This document shows positions 22,134 through 55,463 of a stretch of DNA of 64,000 nucleotides, one piece after another (position 1 is the stretch's first letter; each line of letters opens with the position of its first letter). The position numbers were made by a program, and so were the translations under genes. This stretch comes from a virus. The stretch is taken from positions 55,276 to 119,275 of IMG/VR virus record IMGVR_UViG_3300032268_000694; one strand, given 5' to 3'. The notes below the pieces were generated by a model, which was given only the letters and a program-made list of their open reading frames with translations, had not been told where the DNA came from and did no database searches.

Positions 22134-22925
22134 ATGAAAAATCTAGTAATATGCGGAGATTCATTTAGTATTGGGATTGGGTGTCACGATTTATATAATG
22201 AACCTTATGGTTCTTTACTTGCTAAAAAATTAGGTCTTAATTTAATTAATTTAGCTAAAGGATCCAGTACAAATTTGTCTATATCTCTACAGGTAAAACA
22301 CGCTGTTGATAATATACCAGATATTGAATTACTTATTGTTGGTAATACATGTTATCACCGTACTGAGTGGTTTCCTGAAGATGCAAGAGAAGATAGAGAA
22401 GCTAATAATTTAAATGTTAATTACCACCAATATCCACCATATGGAGAAGGTACTTATCCTTATTTATTAGAAAATCCTATGAAAGATGATCCTAGATATA
22501 GAGGGGAAATGTTAACAGAAAATTGGTATGGTGTTATTGACTATGTTGAAAATATTTTAGATAAACATAACAATGTTAATGAATCTACATACTTCAAAAA
22601 GTTTAAAAATGAACGCCCTGAAAGAATGAGATTATTAAAGCAATATTACTTAGAATTTTTTGATGGTAGAATTCAAAGACAATATGATATGGCTGTTATT
22701 ATTAAATCTCATGTGTTATTAAAAAACAGAGGAATAAAACACTTTGTATTAACTAATGATACTGAATTTAATCAATATATTCCTAATGAAAATTTAGTGG
22801 ATGTAGATTGGGGTAAACTGTCGCAAACATATCCTGACGATTTAAAATCATTACATACTTCTTGGGAAGGCCAAAAAGCAGTGTATGAAACCATATTACG
22901 AAAATTAAATAGACCTATTATATAG
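22134..22925 (+). CDS. SGNH/GDSL-family hydrolase 3
   Basis: 263 residues. Block I is LVICGDSFSIGIGC. NLAKGSSTN fits the second (Gly) block and LLIVGNTC fits the Asn block. The C-terminal His element is SLHTSWEGQ, where the Asp partner is less obvious than in the other copies. The last base is shared with the GTG start of the next gene. It belongs with the SGNH cluster in the glycan island. Confidence 0.7.
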   Translation: MKNLVICGDSFSIGIGCHDLYNEPYGSLLAKKLGLNLINLAKGSSTNLSISLQVKHAVDNIPDIELLIVGNTCYHRTEWFPEDAREDREANNLNVNYHQYPPYGEGTYPYLLENPMKDDPRYRGEMLTENWYGVIDYVENILDKHNNVNESTYFKKFKNERPERMRLLKQYYLEFFDGRIQRQYDMAVIIKSHVLLKNRGIKHFVLTNDTEFNQYIPNENLVDVDWGKLSQTYPDDLKSLHTSWEGQKAVYETILRKLNRPII

Positions 22926-24340
22926 TGAAAAAATTAACACTCGTTTACGATTATATATTTCCTAATTTTGCATTACCCAATGCATTAAATCCTCAATTAG
23001 GAATGATAAACTACATTTTATCACAATATAATGATAAAGTAGTATATAGTACCTTTTTAGAAAATAATATGGATTGGTTTCAAAAGATGTTTGATAACTC
23101 TTTTGGATATAACCAAAATACAATGACTGGCTTTATTATTGAAGCTGATGTATACCAAAATAAAATTAACTATGAATATGAATCCTTATATTTTGCATTA
23201 CACCAACAAAAGAAATTTATATACCCAATAAAACCAAACCCAATATTCCAAAATTTTTGTGGAATAGTTAATCATGGAAATGATGGTACTAAAATATCTG
23301 GAGACTATTTTTGGAAGTTTATATCTAAACGAGCATTAACAGAAATTAAAAATAGGAATGGAATAATCCTAATTGACTATTCTATGGAACCTTTCATTTC
23401 ATATGGATATCACCAAATGCTTCACCAATGCTTAAAAGATTCAGAAATCGATAAAGATTCAATTTATATAATGGTTAATAGCTTTAATGCTAAAGAATTA
23501 TATGAAAGTTGGTTTCCTATTAATGAAAGACGGTATAATGTTCTTAATGTTCCTTTTTGTTTAGAACATAGTTCACATTATTATATGGATATTTTAAATA
23601 GAGGTGAAGATAAAATATTAACTCTTTCTAAATTTTTAGAAACAAAAAATACTTTAAGAAAGAATCACTTTTTAATGAAAATTAAAAACCCAAAGGAACA
23701 CAGGTTAAAAATTTTAATTTCTTTAATTGATGATAATCTTATTAATCTAGGAGATTGGTCATTTAGCGGTGAAAATTTTTCTAAAACAAATAATTTTAAA
23801 TATGCTGTTAGAAACATGGATTTGAAAAATAAAGAACATGTTATTAATATTATGGATAAAGGTCCTTATAACTTACAAAGTGAGCAAAATCTTAGTTTTA
23901 ATGATGTTAATGCCTGGACTGATAAAGAATATGCGGCTCATATTAATTCATATTTTGATATATGTTTTGAATCATTTTTTTATGATGAAAGTGAAACATT
24001 ATCCTTAACAGAAAAAATATTTAAACCAATTATCAATTTCCAACCATTTATCTTTGTTGCTACAAAAGGATCATTAAATCTATTAAGAAATTTAGGATTT
24101 AAAACATTTGAAGGATTTATAGATGAATCGTATGATGATATAGAAGATAATGATAAAAGACTATTTGCAGCATATGAACAAATTAAAAAATTATGCTCAA
24201 TGTCTAAAGAAGAAATTCATAACTGGTATTGGAGTATGGAAGAAATATTAATACATAATCATAATCATTTATTAAAAATCCATAATAATAAAATGATAAC
24301 AGAAACCGCTTTTGATACTTTATATGAACGTTGTAGATAA
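22925..24340 (+). CDS. Predicted glycosyltransferase (fucosyltransferase/exostosin-like C-terminal motif)
   Basis: 471 residues from a GTG start that overlaps the upstream stop. The C-terminal third has FDICFESFF, then LTEKIFKPIINFQPFIFVATKGS and GFKTFEGFIDESYDD. The pattern ES...TEK-FKP....PFI is the donor-binding signature of GT10-type and exostosin-like glycosyltransferases. The N-terminal two thirds are unfamiliar. It lies between SGNH hydrolase genes, consistent with a role in the same glycan. The assignment is from the C-terminal motif only. Confidence 0.5.
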   Translation: MKKLTLVYDYIFPNFALPNALNPQLGMINYILSQYNDKVVYSTFLENNMDWFQKMFDNSFGYNQNTMTGFIIEADVYQNKINYEYESLYFALHQQKKFIYPIKPNPIFQNFCGIVNHGNDGTKISGDYFWKFISKRALTEIKNRNGIILIDYSMEPFISYGYHQMLHQCLKDSEIDKDSIYIMVNSFNAKELYESWFPINERRYNVLNVPFCLEHSSHYYMDILNRGEDKILTLSKFLETKNTLRKNHFLMKIKNPKEHRLKILISLIDDNLINLGDWSFSGENFSKTNNFKYAVRNMDLKNKEHVINIMDKGPYNLQSEQNLSFNDVNAWTDKEYAAHINSYFDICFESFFYDESETLSLTEKIFKPIINFQPFIFVATKGSLNLLRNLGFKTFEGFIDESYDDIEDNDKRLFAAYEQIKKLCSMSKEEIHNWYWSMEEILIHNHNHLLKIHNNKMITETAFDTLYERCR

Positions 24341-25106
24341 CATATTAAGTAGTAATATTATACTAAATCACAAGTATATAAATAAAGAATTATATACTAT
24401 GGCCAGTGATAACAGCAATAATATTAAATATGAAATGAACGAACATGGGTATCGTTCACAATCACCTACTAACTATTCAGACTATAACATATTAACATTA
24501 GGATGTTCATGGACAATGGGGATAGGAGTCGAAAATGAGTTTATATGGCCTACTTTAGTCCATGATAAAATTAATAAAGGGACGTTATTTAATTATGGAA
24601 TGTATGGAGTGTCAACGTCGTTTATTTCAAAAACATTATTTAAATTCGTTTCATCTCAATTTATTCCTAACCTAATATTAATAATGTGGCCTGGATTTTC
24701 AAGAAGAGATTATTTAACAGACACAGGGCAATACCGAAAAATAGGTGGGTTTAGAAAAGCACATGATAAAGATCCTGTTTGGAAAAACAATGAAGAGGAC
24801 TTATTATTCCTACAGTTACGAAATGATAACCAAGATTTAATGGAATTTTGGGAAGCTTATACTTTTGTAGAGACAATATCACGATTATACGGAATAAAAA
24901 CATACCACACTATAGCTGGTTATTATTATGATGTATTTAGTGAATTAAAAACAAATTTAAATTATACAATAAATTATGATAGATTTTTTGATCCTATTGA
25001 TTGCTACAAAAATGATAAACAAGCCCAAGACAACGAACACCCAGGCCAAAAATGGCACCAAACATTCTCAGAACACTTTTACAAATTTATAGAAAATAAA
25101 ATATGA
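24324..25106 (+). CDS. SGNH/GDSL-family hydrolase 4 (GCSW type)
   Basis: 260 residues from the ATG at 24324, which overlaps the upstream gene by 17 bases. A TTG at 24312 or a later ATG at 24399 are alternatives. Block I is ILTLGCSWTMGIG, with Cys in place of the Asp of GDS. LIMWPGFSRRDY and the C-terminal DNEHPGQKWH (Asp and His of the triad) follow. It is closely related to the gene at 34604 (shared SDNS, NEHGYR/NSLGFR and GCS blocks), so the two are paralogues separated by 10 kb. It overlaps the next gene by four bases. Confidence 0.72.
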   Translation: MNVVDNILSSNIILNHKYINKELYTMASDNSNNIKYEMNEHGYRSQSPTNYSDYNILTLGCSWTMGIGVENEFIWPTLVHDKINKGTLFNYGMYGVSTSFISKTLFKFVSSQFIPNLILIMWPGFSRRDYLTDTGQYRKIGGFRKAHDKDPVWKNNEEDLLFLQLRNDNQDLMEFWEAYTFVETISRLYGIKTYHTIAGYYYDVFSELKTNLNYTINYDRFFDPIDCYKNDKQAQDNEHPGQKWHQTFSEHFYKFIENKI

Positions 25107-25534
25107 AACAAAGAAAATATCTACCAACATTAAGTGAATTAATTGATCGTTTAGCTATAGTACAACTAAAAGAAGTATTTATTCCTGAACATAAGGATGA
25201 ATATGCTAAAGAAATTCAAGATATAACTCACGATATTCAATTAGCATTAGATGAACAAAAAGAAGTTATTAATGCTGAAACAGTTAGAGCAATTATTGTA
25301 TTAGCTCAAATGAACCTACATATTTGGCATAACGAATCAAATGTTCGTAAAGGTATATCAGATGGTAATAGTTTAGAACTAACACATGGTTTAAATGGTA
25401 TTCGCAACACTGCTAAAAATAAAATACAAGAAGTAGCAGGTGGCAGAAAAGATTATAAGATTGATTGCCTAGCAGCAGATATGCAAGTATGGGAAGTTAG
25501 TTGGAATAATACCTCTCAGGATACTCAACGATAA
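25103..25534 (+). CDS. Unknown helical protein closing the first glycan operon
   Basis: 143 residues, predicted all-helical (LSELIDRLAIVQLKEVFIPEHK, then a helix at about 60-80). No catalytic motif is recognised. Its 3' end overlaps the 3' end of the convergent minus-strand gene by 38 bases, so it is the last gene of the plus-strand operon that begins at 11147. It may be a regulatory or scaffolding partner of the sugar enzymes, but that is a guess. Confidence 0.6.
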   Translation: MKQRKYLPTLSELIDRLAIVQLKEVFIPEHKDEYAKEIQDITHDIQLALDEQKEVINAETVRAIIVLAQMNLHIWHNESNVRKGISDGNSLELTHGLNGIRNTAKNKIQEVAGGRKDYKIDCLAADMQVWEVSWNNTSQDTQR

Positions 25535-26045
25535 CATTTACACCTCCATTAGCATAGGCATTTTTGTAAGTTTCTTCTATGTTTTCCCAACCTTTTAAAT
25601 TGTGAAAACGAATATGAGGACATAATGTTTTAAACTCTTCAAGATAGTTTCCTCTATGTTGGTGGCCTGGGTCTAATGGTTTGTCTGAACCTTTACCTAG
25701 ACGAATAATCATATTAACATCCCAAGAACCTCTACTCATTATGTTTAATTTATCAACATGGTTTACTAATTGGTTAGTTGCACAAATTAAAAAATCCCAA
25801 CGAGGATAAAATGTAATTACAAACGAACCTGCCATCGCTAATCCTAAACTTATTCCCATTTGTGATTCTTCCATAACAGGTACTTCAACCATTTTATGTT
25901 TGGGAACATTACCTAAGGTAGTACTCATGGGATTACCCGGCCACAATACTTGTTGACCTATAAAAATAGTATCATCTTGTTGACCTAAAAACGTCATTGA
26001 ATTAGTTAATGCGTCTTTATAGGGAGTATATTCTGGTGAACTCAT
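25497..26045 (-). CDS. Thiamine-diphosphate enzyme, E1-beta/transketolase pyrimidine-binding half
   Basis: 182 residues. It has the layout of the pyrimidine-binding domain of E1-beta and transketolase central regions: FIGQQVLWPGNPMSTTLGN, then VEVPVMEESQMGISLGLAMAGSFVITFYPRWDF (the conserved Glu-containing cofactor-activation segment), then NQLVNHVDKLNIMS. It is about half the usual E1-beta length and lacks the C-terminal transketolase domain. It ends the minus-strand operon, two bases after the dehydratase gene. It is expected to pair with the gene at 27033-27620. Confidence 0.75.
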   Translation of the reverse strand: MSSPEYTPYKDALTNSMTFLGQQDDTIFIGQQVLWPGNPMSTTLGNVPKHKMVEVPVMEESQMGISLGLAMAGSFVITFYPRWDFLICATNQLVNHVDKLNIMSRGSWDVNMIIRLGKGSDKPLDPGHQHRGNYLEEFKTLCPHIRFHNLKGWENIEETYKNAYANGGVNVIVEYPERYYSN

Positions 26046-26046
26046 A

Positions 26047-27048
26047 TTATCTATTTAAAAATTTTCTTCCTGTCTTTATTTTATCTCTCCAATAGTTTAA
26101 TAAATCTAACATTGTAGTTTCATATGATATTTCTGGCTTCCAACCTGTATGGGCTCTAAATTTAGAAGTATCTGGTATCTGCAAATCAGCATCTATTGGT
26201 CTAAGTCTATCTTTATCTTTAATTATTTCTATATTGTTTAGTGATGATAATCTAACTAAATGATACAATGTTTCTTCTACAGTACATGTGTATTCACCCC
26301 CAATATTATAACATTCACCTGAGGTTGGATTAACTGTTAATAACATATAGTATGCTTTAACAGCATCTCTCACATCAGCGTATGTTCTTAATGATTGTAG
26401 ATTACCAACATATATTTTTGGTTCTTGTAATCCAGCTTCAATCATTGCTATTTGTTTAGCAAATGTAGATTCATGAAAAACATCACCACGTCTAGGACCA
26501 GTATGAGTAAACATACGAGTAATCATTATTTTCATATCATGAGCCTCAGCATAGTAACGACCAATTAAATCAGTACCTACTTTAGATATTGCATATGGTG
26601 ATGCTGGGTGGATACTACATTCTTCATTAATTGGTAATTTATCTTTAGGTACTTTACCAAATATTTCACTTGATGAACAAACATGAATTTTAGCATCTTT
26701 ATGTTTTAGTGCTTCGAGTAAATTAGTAGTACCTATAATGTTAGTTTGAAGTGTTTCAATAGGAGAAATAAAGCTAGTTTGAGGATATGATTGAGCAGCC
26801 AAATGAAAAACATAATCAGGATTTGATAATTCAACTACTCTAATAACAGAGACCATATCATTTAGATCACCATATATTAATTCAATTCTGTCTTTCTTAT
26901 TTATCCTATCAGATAAATGCTCAATATTTTCTAAATTGTCATTCCATCGACAAAAACCATAAATCTTCCAATCTGTATTTTCTATTAGAAAATCAGCAAG
27001 GTGTGATCCAACCATTCCTGTAATACCTGTAATTAAAACACTACCCAT
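26047..27048 (-). CDS. NDP-sugar 4,6-dehydratase/reductase (extended SDR, GDP-mannose dehydratase-like)
   Basis: 333 residues. The start at 27048 gives MGSVLITGITGMVGSHL, the usual N-terminal Rossmann motif. An in-frame ATG 24 bases upstream is an alternative. SSSE and YAISK supply the Ser/Tyr/Lys catalytic residues. The C-terminal DRLRPID, then the GWKPEISYETTMLDLL pattern, is typical of GDP-mannose 4,6-dehydratases and related GDP-sugar enzymes. In this operon it would make a 4-keto-6-deoxy sugar as substrate for the thiamine enzyme and epimerase. The start overlaps the upstream gene by 16 bases. Confidence 0.85.
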   Translation of the reverse strand: MGSVLITGITGMVGSHLADFLIENTDWKIYGFCRWNDNLENIEHLSDRINKKDRIELIYGDLNDMVSVIRVVELSNPDYVFHLAAQSYPQTSFISPIETLQTNIIGTTNLLEALKHKDAKIHVCSSSEIFGKVPKDKLPINEECSIHPASPYAISKVGTDLIGRYYAEAHDMKIMITRMFTHTGPRRGDVFHESTFAKQIAMIEAGLQEPKIYVGNLQSLRTYADVRDAVKAYYMLLTVNPTSGECYNIGGEYTCTVEETLYHLVRLSSLNNIEIIKDKDRLRPIDADLQIPDTSKFRAHTGWKPEISYETTMLDLLNYWRDKIKTGRKFLNR

Positions 27049-27620
27049 TTTCCTGTTCCGTAGTGCGGCCACTGTTTTTCGTATTGATAATAAATAACAT
27101 TTTTTGGTATTGGTTTTTTAACTTTCCAAGTCTCAATTGTAGGAGTATTAGTAGAAACACCATTATCTTCCACTACAAATTGAACCGGTAATTTATGATT
27201 AGTAACATACTTATGCATTTCATAAAACCCACCAGTTTCAAACGCCATGTCACCTATAAAACACCACACTTTATTTTTACTCCCCTCAGTTTTAAGCTTC
27301 ATAGCAACCCCTACAGCTATTGGTATTATAGCACCAACAATTGCTGATGAATAAAAATTATGTTCTTTATTTATAATTGTAATTGAGCGTCCTGCTAAAA
27401 TTTCCTCTTCTAACCACGTTGGATTAATTCCACTCAACAATGCGTGGTAATGAGAACGCCAAGTTGAAAATACCCAATCACCTTTTTTTACCTTCTTAAA
27501 GATTTTAATTAATTGATCTTCATTACCACCACTAAGATGTACAGGCCCCTTAATTCTACCCGCTTCCCAATGATCAGCAATCATTCTTTCATAGTTGATT
27601 AAATCTTGCTTTGTATACAT
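27033..27620 (-). CDS. Thiamine-diphosphate enzyme, E1-alpha-like half
   Basis: 195 residues. The ThDP-binding signature is GDMAFETGGFYE followed about 28 residues later by EDNGVSTNTPT (the GD...N motif). The preceding helix AIVGAIIPIAVGVAMKLK matches E1-alpha subunits. At 195 residues it is much shorter than a full E1-alpha. The partner pyrimidine-binding half is two genes downstream at 25497. Split E1-type pairs in sugar operons transfer two-carbon acyl units to keto-sugars (for example the AviB1/AviB2 pair in avilamycin); that role is proposed here by analogy. Confidence 0.8.
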   Translation of the reverse strand: MYTKQDLINYERMIADHWEAGRIKGPVHLSGGNEDQLIKIFKKVKKGDWVFSTWRSHYHALLSGINPTWLEEEILAGRSITIINKEHNFYSSAIVGAIIPIAVGVAMKLKTEGSKNKVWCFIGDMAFETGGFYEMHKYVTNHKLPVQFVVEDNGVSTNTPTIETWKVKKPIPKNVIYYQYEKQWPHYGTGKWVVF

Positions 27621-28166
27621 TTATTTATCTTTACTTTGTAAAATAGGATTATCTGTAGGCCATTCTATCTGAAATTCAGGATCATTCCATTTAATAACAC
27701 CATGATCAACTGAATCAACATAACCATCTTTATAGAACATATTATAATGAAATATACAATCAGTTAATGCATAATGCCCGTTAGCAAATCCAGGTGGAAC
27801 TAATACTTGTTCTCTTGTTCTTTCAGTAATAAGATATGATTCCCAATCACCATATGTAGGCGATGTTGATCTTGCATCTAATACTACTAAATATATTTCA
27901 CCCACCAATGCTTGTACTAACTTCCATGTTTTATTATCATAATGTAAACCTCTTAATACACCTTTGTATGAACGAGAAAATCTACCATGGATTGACAGTT
28001 CTTCCTTATTGTAATGTATATGATTCATTACTGGATGTTCTTCACTATGATACGTTGTGAATATTTCACCTCTAAATTCTCTAAAAATTGATGGTGTAAA
28101 TAGCGGTACTTCAAAACCAAATTTTTTGGATTCCGTAACCTTGAATTGATTCCATTTATTATTCAT
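27621..28166 (-). CDS. NDP-4-keto-sugar 3,5-epimerase (RmlC-like)
   Basis: 181 residues, the normal length for an RmlC cupin. Family motifs: GVLRGLHYD (catalytic His), EIYLVVLDARSTSPTYGDW, VPPGFANGHYAL and HGVIKWNDPEFQIEWP. It is the first gene of the minus-strand operon, with an oppositely oriented TATTTATA copy 18 bases upstream. It would epimerise the 4-keto-6-deoxy sugar made by the dehydratase. The substrate sugar is not certain, since the dehydratase looks GDP-type. Confidence 0.85.
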   Translation of the reverse strand: MNNKWNQFKVTESKKFGFEVPLFTPSIFREFRGEIFTTYHSEEHPVMNHIHYNKEELSIHGRFSRSYKGVLRGLHYDNKTWKLVQALVGEIYLVVLDARSTSPTYGDWESYLITERTREQVLVPPGFANGHYALTDCIFHYNMFYKDGYVDSVDHGVIKWNDPEFQIEWPTDNPILQSKDK

Positions 28167-29101: not shown

Positions 29102-30649
29102 ATGAACATATTGGGTATATCGGCGTATTATCACGATTCGTCCGCTTGTCTATTTCAAAAAGGTAAATTAGTATTTGCTTGTGAAGAAGAAAAATTCACT
29201 GGTATTAAACATGATTCATCTTTTCCTATAAATTCTATAAATTATATTTTAGAAAATTATACGGATAAGATTGACTTGATATGTTATTACGAAAATCCTA
29301 AATTAAAACTTAAACGAGCATTAAAACATAACATCAAATCAGTTCCTCGCATACTGTGGACTAATGTCAAGTTGTTTTTTAAATTAAATAAAATTTGTAG
29401 AAATATTTTTTATTCTACTCACCATATGTCTCATATGGCTTATTCCTATTATACATCTCCTTTTAGTCGTGCTACATTAGTTAGCGTTGATGGTGTTGGA
29501 GAGGAAGAAACAATATGCATAGCCAAAGCAAAAAATAACACAATTACTCAAATTGAATCTACTAAATATCCACATTCATTAGGACTATTATACTCAGCAA
29601 TAACTGCTTATTTAGGATTTAAACCAAACGAAGGTGAATATAAAGTTATGGGTTTAGCCTCGTATGGTAATCCAAAAAAATATGCTGGTGATTTTAATAA
29701 AATTGCTTGTCATAAAGACGGAATACAAATTAATATGAAGTATTTCTCTTGGGATAAAAGTAATAAAGTAATGTTTAATCATCATTTAATAGAATTATTA
29801 GGTGATAATAGACTACCGGATGAACCCATAACACAACGTCATAAAGATATAGCTGCTGCTTTACAACACAAATACGAAAGTATGTTGTTTTATATTTTAA
29901 ACAAATATAGCGGTGATAATCTATGTTTAAGTGGTGGGTGTGCTTATAATGGAACAGCAAATGGTAAGATAACAAAAAATACTACCTATAAAAAATTATG
30001 GATACCAACCGCACCATCTGATGCTGGTTCATGCATAGGTGCTTGTTTAAATTACTTACAAATAAAAATCCACCCAGACCCATTTTTAGGTCCCAGCTAT
30101 GATTTTATTATGTGTAAATCAGTACCATTAGATTTTGATGTTATTGCTAAAGAATTAAATGATGGTAAAGTTGTAGGTTGGTATGAAGGGCGAATTGAAT
30201 TTGGTGCTAGGGCATTAGGGCATAGAAGTATATTAGCTAATCCTACATTACCTCATATGCAGGAACGTATTAATAAGCTAATTAAAAAACGCGAAATGTT
30301 CAGGCCTTTTGCCCCAATGGTAATTTATAGAGACCAAACTAAATACTTTAAATCAGCTGATAACGTTCCTTTTATGAATCAAGTGGTTGAAGTTAAAGAA
30401 GAATATAGAGATATATTAAAAGCTGTAACTCATGTAGACGGAACGGCACGTATCCAATCTGTAAGAGAAGGTAATATGTACAAATTATTAAAAAGTTTTG
30501 AGAAGCAAAGTGGATTTCCTATATTACTAAATACATCATTTAATGTTAAAGACAAAACTATAGTATTGTATCCTGAAGATGCACTACAAACATTCTATGA
30601 TACGGATATGGACATATTAGTAATTAATAATGAAATGTATTTTAAATGA
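29102..30649 (+). CDS. NodU/CmcH-family carbamoyltransferase
   Basis: 515 residues. N-terminal YrdC/Kae1-type actin fold: MNILGISAYYHDSSACLF and SVDGVGEEET. HHMSHMAYSYY carries the conserved His residues, and EGEYKVMGLASYG is present. C-terminal domain: LCLSGGCAYNG, GARALGHRSILANP, RPFAPMV and LNTSFNV. All are signatures of O-carbamoyltransferases that use carbamoyl phosphate and ATP. It probably carbamoylates the phage-made sugar. It overlaps the next gene by four bases. Full length, with no visible defects. Confidence 0.9.
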   Translation: MNILGISAYYHDSSACLFQKGKLVFACEEEKFTGIKHDSSFPINSINYILENYTDKIDLICYYENPKLKLKRALKHNIKSVPRILWTNVKLFFKLNKICRNIFYSTHHMSHMAYSYYTSPFSRATLVSVDGVGEEETICIAKAKNNTITQIESTKYPHSLGLLYSAITAYLGFKPNEGEYKVMGLASYGNPKKYAGDFNKIACHKDGIQINMKYFSWDKSNKVMFNHHLIELLGDNRLPDEPITQRHKDIAAALQHKYESMLFYILNKYSGDNLCLSGGCAYNGTANGKITKNTTYKKLWIPTAPSDAGSCIGACLNYLQIKIHPDPFLGPSYDFIMCKSVPLDFDVIAKELNDGKVVGWYEGRIEFGARALGHRSILANPTLPHMQERINKLIKKREMFRPFAPMVIYRDQTKYFKSADNVPFMNQVVEVKEEYRDILKAVTHVDGTARIQSVREGNMYKLLKSFEKQSGFPILLNTSFNVKDKTIVLYPEDALQTFYDTDMDILVINNEMYFK

Positions 30650-54086: not shown

Positions 54087-55463
54087 TTGACAACATTACA
54101 AAAATTATCAACATACGGACCAGTATTCCAAGTAAAAGTATTAGGAGCTCTACTTACACAGAGACAATTCCTTATCAATATTATAGATTCATTAGATGGA
54201 GAATATTTTGAATCGTCTGCCCATAAATGGGTTGTAGAATATGTTCAAAAATACTTTAGTGAGTATCACACAACACCAACTGTAGAGACATTATCTATTG
54301 AAGTAAAGAAGATTGAAAACGAAGTATTAAGAATATCAATCGCTGAGGCACTAAGAGAAGCATATAAAATGTCTGATCAAAGTGATCTAGAATGGGTTGA
54401 AAATGAATTTAGTACTTTCTGTCGCAATCAGCAAGTTAAAAAAGCAATCTTAAATTCAGTTTCATTACTTGAAATGAATGATTTTGAAAGCATCTTACAA
54501 CTAATTAGTAAAGCAGTTAATGCAGGTGAAGATAAAACAATAGGATTAGATTATAACTTAGATATCGAAGCTAGATACCGTGAAGATGATAGAAACTGCA
54601 TTCCATTTCCATGGCCTGTATTTAACGAAATGACACAAGGTGGTTATGGTAAAGGTGATTTAGTATTAGTATTTGGTAATCCTGGAGGTGGTAAGTCATG
54701 GGCTATTACGGCAATGGGAGCTTATGCCGCAGCATTAGGATATAATGTAGTACATTATTCACTTGAATTAGGCGAAGGTTATGTTGGTAAAAGATACGAT
54801 GCTGTATTTTCGGGTATTGAAGTTGATAAATTACATTTACACCGTAAAGAGGTTGATGAAATTGTAGGTAAAGTAAAAGGTAAGGTTATTATTAAAGAAT
54901 ACCCACCTAAGAGAGCATCATTCGATACGATTGAAGCACACTTACAACAACTAGAACACCAAAATGACTTTAAACCAGATTTAATTATCATTGATTATCT
55001 AGATTACATGCGTACACGCTCTAGAAAAGAACGTAAAGAAGAAATTGATGACGTTTATGTTGCTGCTAAAGCGTTTGCTAAAGAAAAAGGCATACCTGTA
55101 GTATCACCATCGCAAGCAAATAGAGGTGCTGCAAAATCAGATATCATTGAAGGTGATAACGCAGCAGGTTCATATGAAAAAATTATGATTGGTGATATTA
55201 TATTATCATTAGCACGTAAGCGTAAAGATAAAATTGAAGGAACTGGTAATTGGCATATCATGAAAAATAGATATGGTGCTGATGGTATGACATTTAGATC
55301 CAGAATAAATACATCAAATGGATATATTGATATAGACCAAAACCCAGTTGATGATGATGATATTGAAATAGGTTCGCAAAATAAAGCTGTAAACGATTTT
55401 TCTAGTGTAGGTGTTGAAGAAAGACAAATGCTTAATAAGAAGTTTTTTAAGCTTGAAAACTAA
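54087..55463 (+). CDS. Replicative DNA helicase (DnaB/T4 gp41-like)
   Basis: 458 residues from a TTG start (no in-frame ATG nearby; the GGTTATACATTG context lies before it). The N-terminal helical domain (1-150) is of gp41/DnaB type. Walker A is GNPGGGKS (197-204), Walker B is DLIIIDYLDYM, and the following segment (PVVSPSQANRGAAKS, GSYEKIMIGDIILSL) matches the DnaB motifs H3 and H4. It would unwind the replication fork. No primase gene is visible in the window. Confidence 0.88.
   Translation: MTTLQKLSTYGPVFQVKVLGALLTQRQFLINIIDSLDGEYFESSAHKWVVEYVQKYFSEYHTTPTVETLSIEVKKIENEVLRISIAEALREAYKMSDQSDLEWVENEFSTFCRNQQVKKAILNSVSLLEMNDFESILQLISKAVNAGEDKTIGLDYNLDIEARYREDDRNCIPFPWPVFNEMTQGGYGKGDLVLVFGNPGGGKSWAITAMGAYAAALGYNVVHYSLELGEGYVGKRYDAVFSGIEVDKLHLHRKEVDEIVGKVKGKVIIKEYPPKRASFDTIEAHLQQLEHQNDFKPDLIIIDYLDYMRTRSRKERKEEIDDVYVAAKAFAKEKGIPVVSPSQANRGAAKSDIIEGDNAAGSYEKIMIGDIILSLARKRKDKIEGTGNWHIMKNRYGADGMTFRSRINTSNGYIDIDQNPVDDDDIEIGSQNKAVNDFSSVGVEERQMLNKKFFKLEN

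Follow-up and report, generated by a model that had tools for sequence, protein, structure and literature searches.

Enzymes that use thiamine diphosphate (ThDP) to add a two-carbon branch to sugars include YerE and the E1-like alphaKADH2 enzymes, e.g. KbDH, which act with pyruvate on keto-sugars or their analogues (PMC12247030). Sugar C-branching by E1-type ThDP enzymes is known mainly from antibiotic clusters, and the structure of a ketone-accepting member has not been solved (PMC12247030). Guanosine diphosphate (GDP)-heptoses in Campylobacter jejuni are made through a 4-keto intermediate, which undergoes optional C3 dehydration, epimerisation and C4 reduction (PMC10680097, PMC10440746). Here we describe a four-gene operon that combines an E1-type pair with nucleotide-ketosugar genes, found in 64,000 nucleotides of viral DNA (IMG/VR record IMGVR_UViG_3300032268_000694, positions 55,276 to 119,275; this whole stretch is referred to as the window). 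We lean, with modest confidence, towards the operon being a compact module for branching GDP-heptose ketosugars, giving a GDP-4-C-acetyl C9 sugar.

The source record is a viral contig of 119,275 bases, and because the window carries tail-sheath and ribonucleotide-reductase genes it can be assigned to a contractile-tailed phage. The operon is transcribed on the minus strand, from 28166 to 25497 of the window, in the order rmlC, E1-alpha, short-chain dehydrogenase/reductase (SDR), E1-beta:

27621..28166, minus strand: rmlC, an RmlC-type cupin of 181 aa, probable GDP-4-keto-heptose 3(,5)-epimerase (PF00908, 1.4e-33)
27033..27620, minus strand: mini E1-alpha, 195 aa, the PP (diphosphate-binding) domain only of a ThDP enzyme (PF00676, 2e-15)
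26047..27048, minus strand: SDR of the 4,6-dehydratase type (GDP_Man_Dehyd, 1.7e-74); the listed open reading frame reaches a GTG at 27072
25497..26045, minus strand: mini E1-beta, 182 aa, the Pyr (pyrimidine-binding) domain only of a ThDP enzyme (Transket_pyr, 9e-7)

Sequence and structure comparison supports these identities. A preliminary description of this DNA had placed RmlC-like, E1-alpha-like, dehydratase and E1-beta-like genes here, tightly packed and running against their neighbours, and all four open reading frames were found at that place and on that strand. The rmlC and E1-alpha genes abut, E1-alpha and the SDR overlap by 16 nt, and one base separates the SDR from E1-beta. They are the only substantial minus-strand genes of the region, the neighbours otherwise all being on the plus strand, and the 3′ end of E1-beta runs 38 nt into a convergent plus-strand gene (25103-25534). 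For the SDR, the most probable start codon is the ATG at 27048 and not the listed GTG: the latter falls within the overlap with E1-alpha, and in related phages this out-of-frame tail recurs ahead of unrelated genes. The 3′ end of E1-alpha (27033-27048 in the window, and also in loci L009, L013 and L022) is a cassette-exchange point, where unrelated genes start in the same overlapping frame; mechanically called open reading frames starting there share the N-terminal letters AALRNRKMG. Other viral contigs carry these four genes with their order conserved and at 73-78% identity. Strong purifying selection is indicated by dN/dS values of 0.03-0.11, measured for pairs of genes from related phages. 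The arrangement is therefore not a chance one. A scan for promoters and terminators was uninformative, and a role in anti-phage defence was rejected as PADLOC gave no match.

The thiamine enzyme appears from its sequence and models to be complete but minimal, with two domains and with cofactor and catalytic residues intact. The GD...N motif previously claimed for E1-alpha is real and reads GDMAFETGGFYEMHKYVTNHKLPVQFVVEDN (residues 123-153; 27254-27162). Among 43 diverse relatives GD123-124 and N153 of E1-alpha are invariant, as are Glu59 (25871-25869) and His130 (25658-25656) of E1-beta. In family profiles the motif and the histidine in RSHYH align with human pyruvate dehydrogenase (PDH) E1-alpha (RAH), and Glu59 and His130 align with PDH E1-beta. 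The pair thus has both the GDG-type metal-binding motif ending in N (alpha) and the catalytic Glu of the Pyr domain (beta) that mark a ThDP enzyme, and the earlier concern that cofactor residues might be absent from a proper alignment falls away. The AlphaFold2 monomer model of E1-alpha (pLDDT 94.9) best matches the folds of PDH and branched-chain ketoacid dehydrogenase (BCKDH) E1-alpha, at a TMq of about 0.8, and that of E1-beta (pLDDT 92.8) matches PDH/BCKDH E1-beta folds over their N-terminal half only (TMq 0.85). The matched portions are the PP half in E1-alpha and, in E1-beta, the Pyr half; nothing of the canonical subunits beyond these two domains is present. E1-beta was correctly described as minimal, lacking its C-terminal transketolase_C domain, but the truncation is not limited to beta: E1-alpha also lacks the C-terminal half of canonical subunits, and this is a family-wide trait rather than a quirk of one phage.

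Comparison across genomes indicates that these mini-E1 proteins are a distinct, widespread family, split or fused, in phages, bacteria and DPANN archaea, separate from true E1. A first IMG/VR scan gave 39 viral loci with mini-E1, and a profile scan gave at least 584 relatives among 599 candidate stretches. Relatives in the GTDB genome scan come from SAR11, SAR116, Gammaproteobacteria, Chloroflexi, Prochlorococcus, Patescibacteria, Nanoarchaeota and Pacearchaeota. Whenever both alpha and beta were located, they came as a pair of small genes or as one fused protein of about 400 aa; complete free-standing relatives measure about 193-241 aa (alpha) and 173-235 aa (beta). The fused form is PHROG_34187 (function unknown in PHROGs), and is annotated ‘transketolase central region’ in cyanophages S-SM2 and P-TIM68. 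Ordinary full-length E1-alpha is also present in several of the host genomes carrying mini-E1. In an E1-alpha tree built without AviB-type sequences, full-length subunits, including those of the same genomes, fall into a single clade (97/88) that excludes the minis; support for the minis as a group of their own is just 47/45, and long branches are present. The preliminary description had allowed for the best homologues being true pyruvate or branched-chain E1 subunits; the closest are instead minimal pairs from sugar clusters, which make up a family of their own. Six regions with plasmid-borne E1 genes were set aside, as these encode full-length or fused full-length E1 in catabolic, nonribosomal peptide synthetase or (in Azospirillum) glycosyltransferase settings; most of these genes served solely as comparison rows.

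The sugar is most likely a GDP-heptose, rather than a generic 6-deoxyhexose, because the SDR is closest to GDP-heptose 4,6-dehydratase and the RmlC protein to GDP-4-keto-heptose epimerases. The best solved relative of the SDR is the GDP-heptose 4,6-dehydratase 7us5, with which its active-site motifs SSE and YAISK align. The best solved relatives of the RmlC protein are the GDP-D-glycero-4-keto-D-lyxo-heptose epimerases 8dco, 8dcl and 8db5 (2e-36 to 9e-36; 8dco 2.2e-36). It also keeps, as NGH, the N-x-H motif of DdahB (N121, H123), whose His123 has been tied to the larger C7 substrate (PMC7949155). The branched 6-deoxy sugar first proposed therefore needs amending: a ThDP pair in a nucleotide-ketosugar operon fits branching, but a hexose fits the nearest relatives of the SDR and RmlC less well than a heptose. 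Related phages without this dehydratase carry another SDR just upstream of rmlC, which among solved structures is close to 6vo6 alone (351.7 bits, against 87 for the second-best match). We take 6vo6 and 6vo8 to be Cj1427, the GDP-heptose C4-dehydrogenase, the molecule name in the PDB being generic. Cj1427 has C4-dehydrogenase activity (PMC10680097).

Gene context was counted in 95 viral loci, within 8 kb on either side of mini-E1, with SDR classes assigned by best BLAST match to a few references. The RmlC type was present in 84 of the 95, and in 64 of these 84 it lies directly upstream of E1-alpha. An SDR forming a 4-keto sugar was present in 86, with one of the two alternatives alone in 85 and both in one, and the remaining nine loci had neither: the 4,6-dehydratase occurred in 26 loci (25 alone) and the Cj1427-like C4-dehydrogenase type in 61 (60 alone). 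Such counts support a coupling of mini-E1 to GDP-4-keto-heptose enzymes. In loci without a nearby SDR of either kind, the ketone may come from an enzyme of the host or from a phage gene farther away. In 16 viral loci the 8 kb searched on either side held no E1-beta. What lies between E1-alpha and E1-beta is exchangeable among phages: some have the dehydratase there, some have 5-7.5 kb of other genes, and in some there is no gene between the two. Nine of the viral loci, always with the dehydratase, encode a DegT-family pyridoxal phosphate (PLP) protein, in which the PLP lysine is a histidine in 9/9. This substitution is the signature of RfbH/ColD-type C3-dehydratases. The 3,6-dideoxyheptose pathway of C. 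jejuni has a PLP C3-dehydratase (PMC10440746), and in SAR11 and SAR116 the His-type DegT protein is encoded immediately after E1-beta or with one gene in between. Bacterial relatives of mini-E1 sit among HddC, GmhA, HddA, dehydratase, RmlC and reductase genes, as in Chloroflexi, where the order is HddC-GmhA-E1a-E1b-dehydratase-HddA-NUDIX-reductase-RmlC-reductase (NUDIX assigned by eye).

The most fitting role for an E1-type ThDP pair in a nucleotide-ketosugar operon, as far as its genes can tell, is two-carbon carboligation to form a branched sugar. The SDR would convert GDP-heptose to GDP-6-deoxy-4-keto-heptose, and the RmlC-type cupin would epimerise the 4-keto-heptose at C3 and/or C5. The mini-E1 alpha/beta complex, which may be a heterodimer or a tetramer, would hold ThDP between its PP and Pyr domains and decarboxylate a donor, presumably pyruvate, to hydroxyethyl-ThDP. 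The ketone at C4 would then receive the two-carbon unit, and the resulting GDP-4-C-acetyl branched C9 sugar might later be reduced and moved onto a glycan of the virion or host. We infer transfer to C4 because known systems, such as yersiniose formation by YerE, pair 4-keto, C3-deoxy and ThDP enzymes. Relatives of GDP-fucose-synthase-like reductases, the candidate C4-reductases, were not found in the 119 kb record, which may be a fragment, and for that reason the ketone would be free for attack in loci of the window type. No relative of GmhA, HddA, HddC or the C3-dehydratase was found in the same, possibly fragmentary, record. Mini-E1 thus seems to sit at the 4-keto stage of a Campylobacter-type GDP-heptose pathway that elsewhere ends in C4 reduction. 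The wider proposal, that mini-E1 proteins are two-domain ThDP carboligases, the smallest E1-type enzymes, branching GDP-4-keto-heptoses to C9 sugars as a plug-in of phages, SAR11 and SAR116 that replaces or precedes C4 reduction, is in our judgement evenly balanced.

Several points weigh against branching at C4. A GDP-fucose-synthase-like SDR lies within 8 kb in 65 of the 95 viral loci, and could reduce the ketone, with the ThDP enzyme acting elsewhere. This SDR could equally reduce the new acetyl branch, and the choice between C4 and branch is the main ambiguity. The DPANN/fused subgroup occurs with radical S-adenosylmethionine (SAM) proteins or Zn-alcohol dehydrogenases, mostly without GDP-4-keto-heptose enzymes, and the mini-E1 family as a whole, distant subgroups included, may use other acceptors. 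The likeness to AviB1/B2 is one of analogy.

Among the other explanations, the same two-carbon carboligation could act on a 4-keto-6-deoxy-hexose derived from GDP-mannose or dTDP-glucose, as in avilamycin or yersiniose. Both the SDR and RmlC families include hexose members, GDP-mannose dehydratase ranks top for the SDR in NCBIfam, though below its cut-off, and the C. jejuni epimerases and reductases also accept a mannose analogue (PMC7949155). Yet the phage proteins are markedly nearer to heptose enzymes (381.7 bits for 7us5 against at most 178 for the next SDR relative; 2.2e-36 for 8dco against 2e-24 for dTDP-rhamnose RmlC), and the Cj1427-type dehydrogenase of related phages and the HddA, HddC and GmhA genes of cellular relatives also speak for a heptose, so we regard a hexose as unlikely. 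A little less likely again is that mini-E1 works upstream of GmhA as a small transketolase, supplying sedoheptulose-7-phosphate or some other ketose phosphate as the precursor of the heptose, with no action on the nucleotide sugar. Mini-E1 does lie directly beside gmhA in Chloroflexi, has weaker matches to transketolase and DXS, and in its fused form often has PfkB kinase and cytidylyltransferase genes nearby. Against this, GmhA, HddA and HddC occur in none of the 95 viral loci, where RmlC and the 4-keto-forming SDRs predominate and RmlC so often directly precedes E1-alpha, and both sequence and fold are E1-like rather than transketolase-like. A marine gammaproteobacterial metagenome-assembled genome (MAG; L044:7985-11673) moreover encodes a mini-E1 pair and, one gene on, a separate full split transketolase pair.

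The pair might also be a decarboxylase or carboligase on some other substrate of the cluster, producing for instance a small aldehyde or acyl donor for later attachment, the GDP-heptose genes being mere company. The radical-SAM and Zn-alcohol dehydrogenase contexts of distant subgroups suggest varied chemistry of this sort, while RmlC and one 4-keto-forming SDR are tightly kept across phages whose other cassettes are exchanged, and we consider this explanation improbable. The least probable by far is an ordinary PDH E1 carried as an auxiliary metabolic gene, or its decaying remnant. PDH E1 subunits are indeed the best PDB and NCBIfam sequence matches, but at scores far below curated cut-offs (91 vs 394 bits; 37 vs 321 bits). 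A true pyruvate or branched-chain dehydrogenase E1 has complete alpha and beta subunits and an E2 partner, whereas here domains are missing throughout the family, and no E2/E3 or lipoyl partner was found among the genes adjoining the operon, to which the search was limited. An auxiliary PDH E1 was accordingly rejected on truncation, scores and the tree, and the strong purifying selection does not suit a remnant.

Distant members of the family have other neighbours. Radical-SAM/SPASM proteins of about 350 aa lie beside mini-E1 in DPANN archaea, deltaproteobacterial MAGs and some jumbo phages (L054:8845-9900, L055:824-1876, L058:2396-3451, L065:7547-8599, L075:8899-9987), and E1-beta of one Pacearchaeota MAG carries a fused radical-SAM-like domain (L062:10603-12243). 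These neighbours point to different chemistry of the same mini ThDP enzyme. In cyanophages (L041 and L042, S-SM2 and P-TIM68), Prochlorococcus and Patescibacteria (L066, L069-L073) a Zn-alcohol dehydrogenase directly precedes the fused mini-E1.

Near the operon in the window, a NodU/Nol-like carbamoyltransferase (29102-30649, plus strand) adjoins it, is also near it in several related phages, and may modify the same glycan. The 143-aa gene that converges on E1-beta (25103-25534) has no significant Pfam or PHROG match and is 70-78% identical in many of these phages. Between 21236 and 25106 on the plus strand, several genes have GDS/GCS-type N-terminal motifs reminiscent of SGNH hydrolases; genes of this stretch gave no PHROGs match, and those tested gave no meaningful Pfam match. 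Among them a 471-aa gene (22925-24340) has relatives that form multi-copy arrays in these phages; its reading as a GT10-type fucosyltransferase was dropped, as a profile of 11 relatives had no PDB match.

If the proposed pathway is correct, hundreds of viral sequences, together with uncultured bacteria and archaea, hold a new enzyme family making undescribed sugars, and viral genes now labelled transketolase or unknown would gain a function. Sugar branching would be extended to heptoses, by a half-size paired family with a defined upstream pathway, and phages would be seen to construct a complex C9 sugar, presumably destined for glycans of a surface or of the virion. The upstream pathway can be reproduced in vitro with published C. 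jejuni enzymes, making the mini-E1 reaction directly testable. Literature searches turned up nothing that describes this operon, a ThDP enzyme acting in a GDP-heptose pathway, or heptoses C-branched in this manner.

Compared with known systems, the phage loci share with the C. jejuni pathways entry by a 4,6-dehydratase or the Cj1427 C4-dehydrogenase, an RmlC-type epimerase and an optional PLP C3-dehydratase (PMC10680097, PMC10440746, PMC7949155). The C. jejuni pathway ends with a C4-reductase, whereas the phage operon keeps a ThDP pair with the epimerase; the pathway paper does not mention a ThDP enzyme (‘thiamin’, ‘transketolase’ and ‘branched’ are all absent). Yersiniose synthesis resembles our proposal in its sequence of 4,6-dehydratase, C3-deoxygenation and ThDP-dependent two-carbon transfer to a C4 ketone (PMC12247030, PMC4753412). 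However, YerE is a single-chain flavoprotein of the acetolactate-synthase type in the decarboxylase superfamily, acting on a CDP-hexose, and the phage pair has E1_dh and Transket_pyr domains on two chains. PHROG_34187 and the S-SM2/P-TIM68 protein have the same minimal architecture in fused form (PP then Pyr), but are just 30-45% identical and lie beside Zn-alcohol dehydrogenase, PfkB kinase and cytidylyltransferase genes. The alphaKADH2 branching enzymes (AviB1/AviB2, Pau11/Pau12, EvdU5/EvdS3 and, for kibdelomycin, KbDH-alpha/beta) are, like the phage pair, split E1-alpha/E1-beta ThDP enzymes encoded with nucleoside diphosphate-ketosugar genes (PMC12247030, PMC4753412, PMC10338323, PMC4425429). 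Separate alpha and beta subunits are seen in the phage by Pfam, PDB profile and fold, but known alphaKADH2 members are full length (Pau11 325 aa, Pau12 345 aa; PMC4425429), and the phage subunits, without transketolase_C, are not. The alphaKADH2 enzymes belong to actinobacterial antibiotic clusters and act on pentoses or hexoses, whereas mini-E1 is found in phages and in marine or DPANN cells, with GDP-heptose enzymes. By analogy, a pyruvate donor and a ketone acceptor are most likely common to both.

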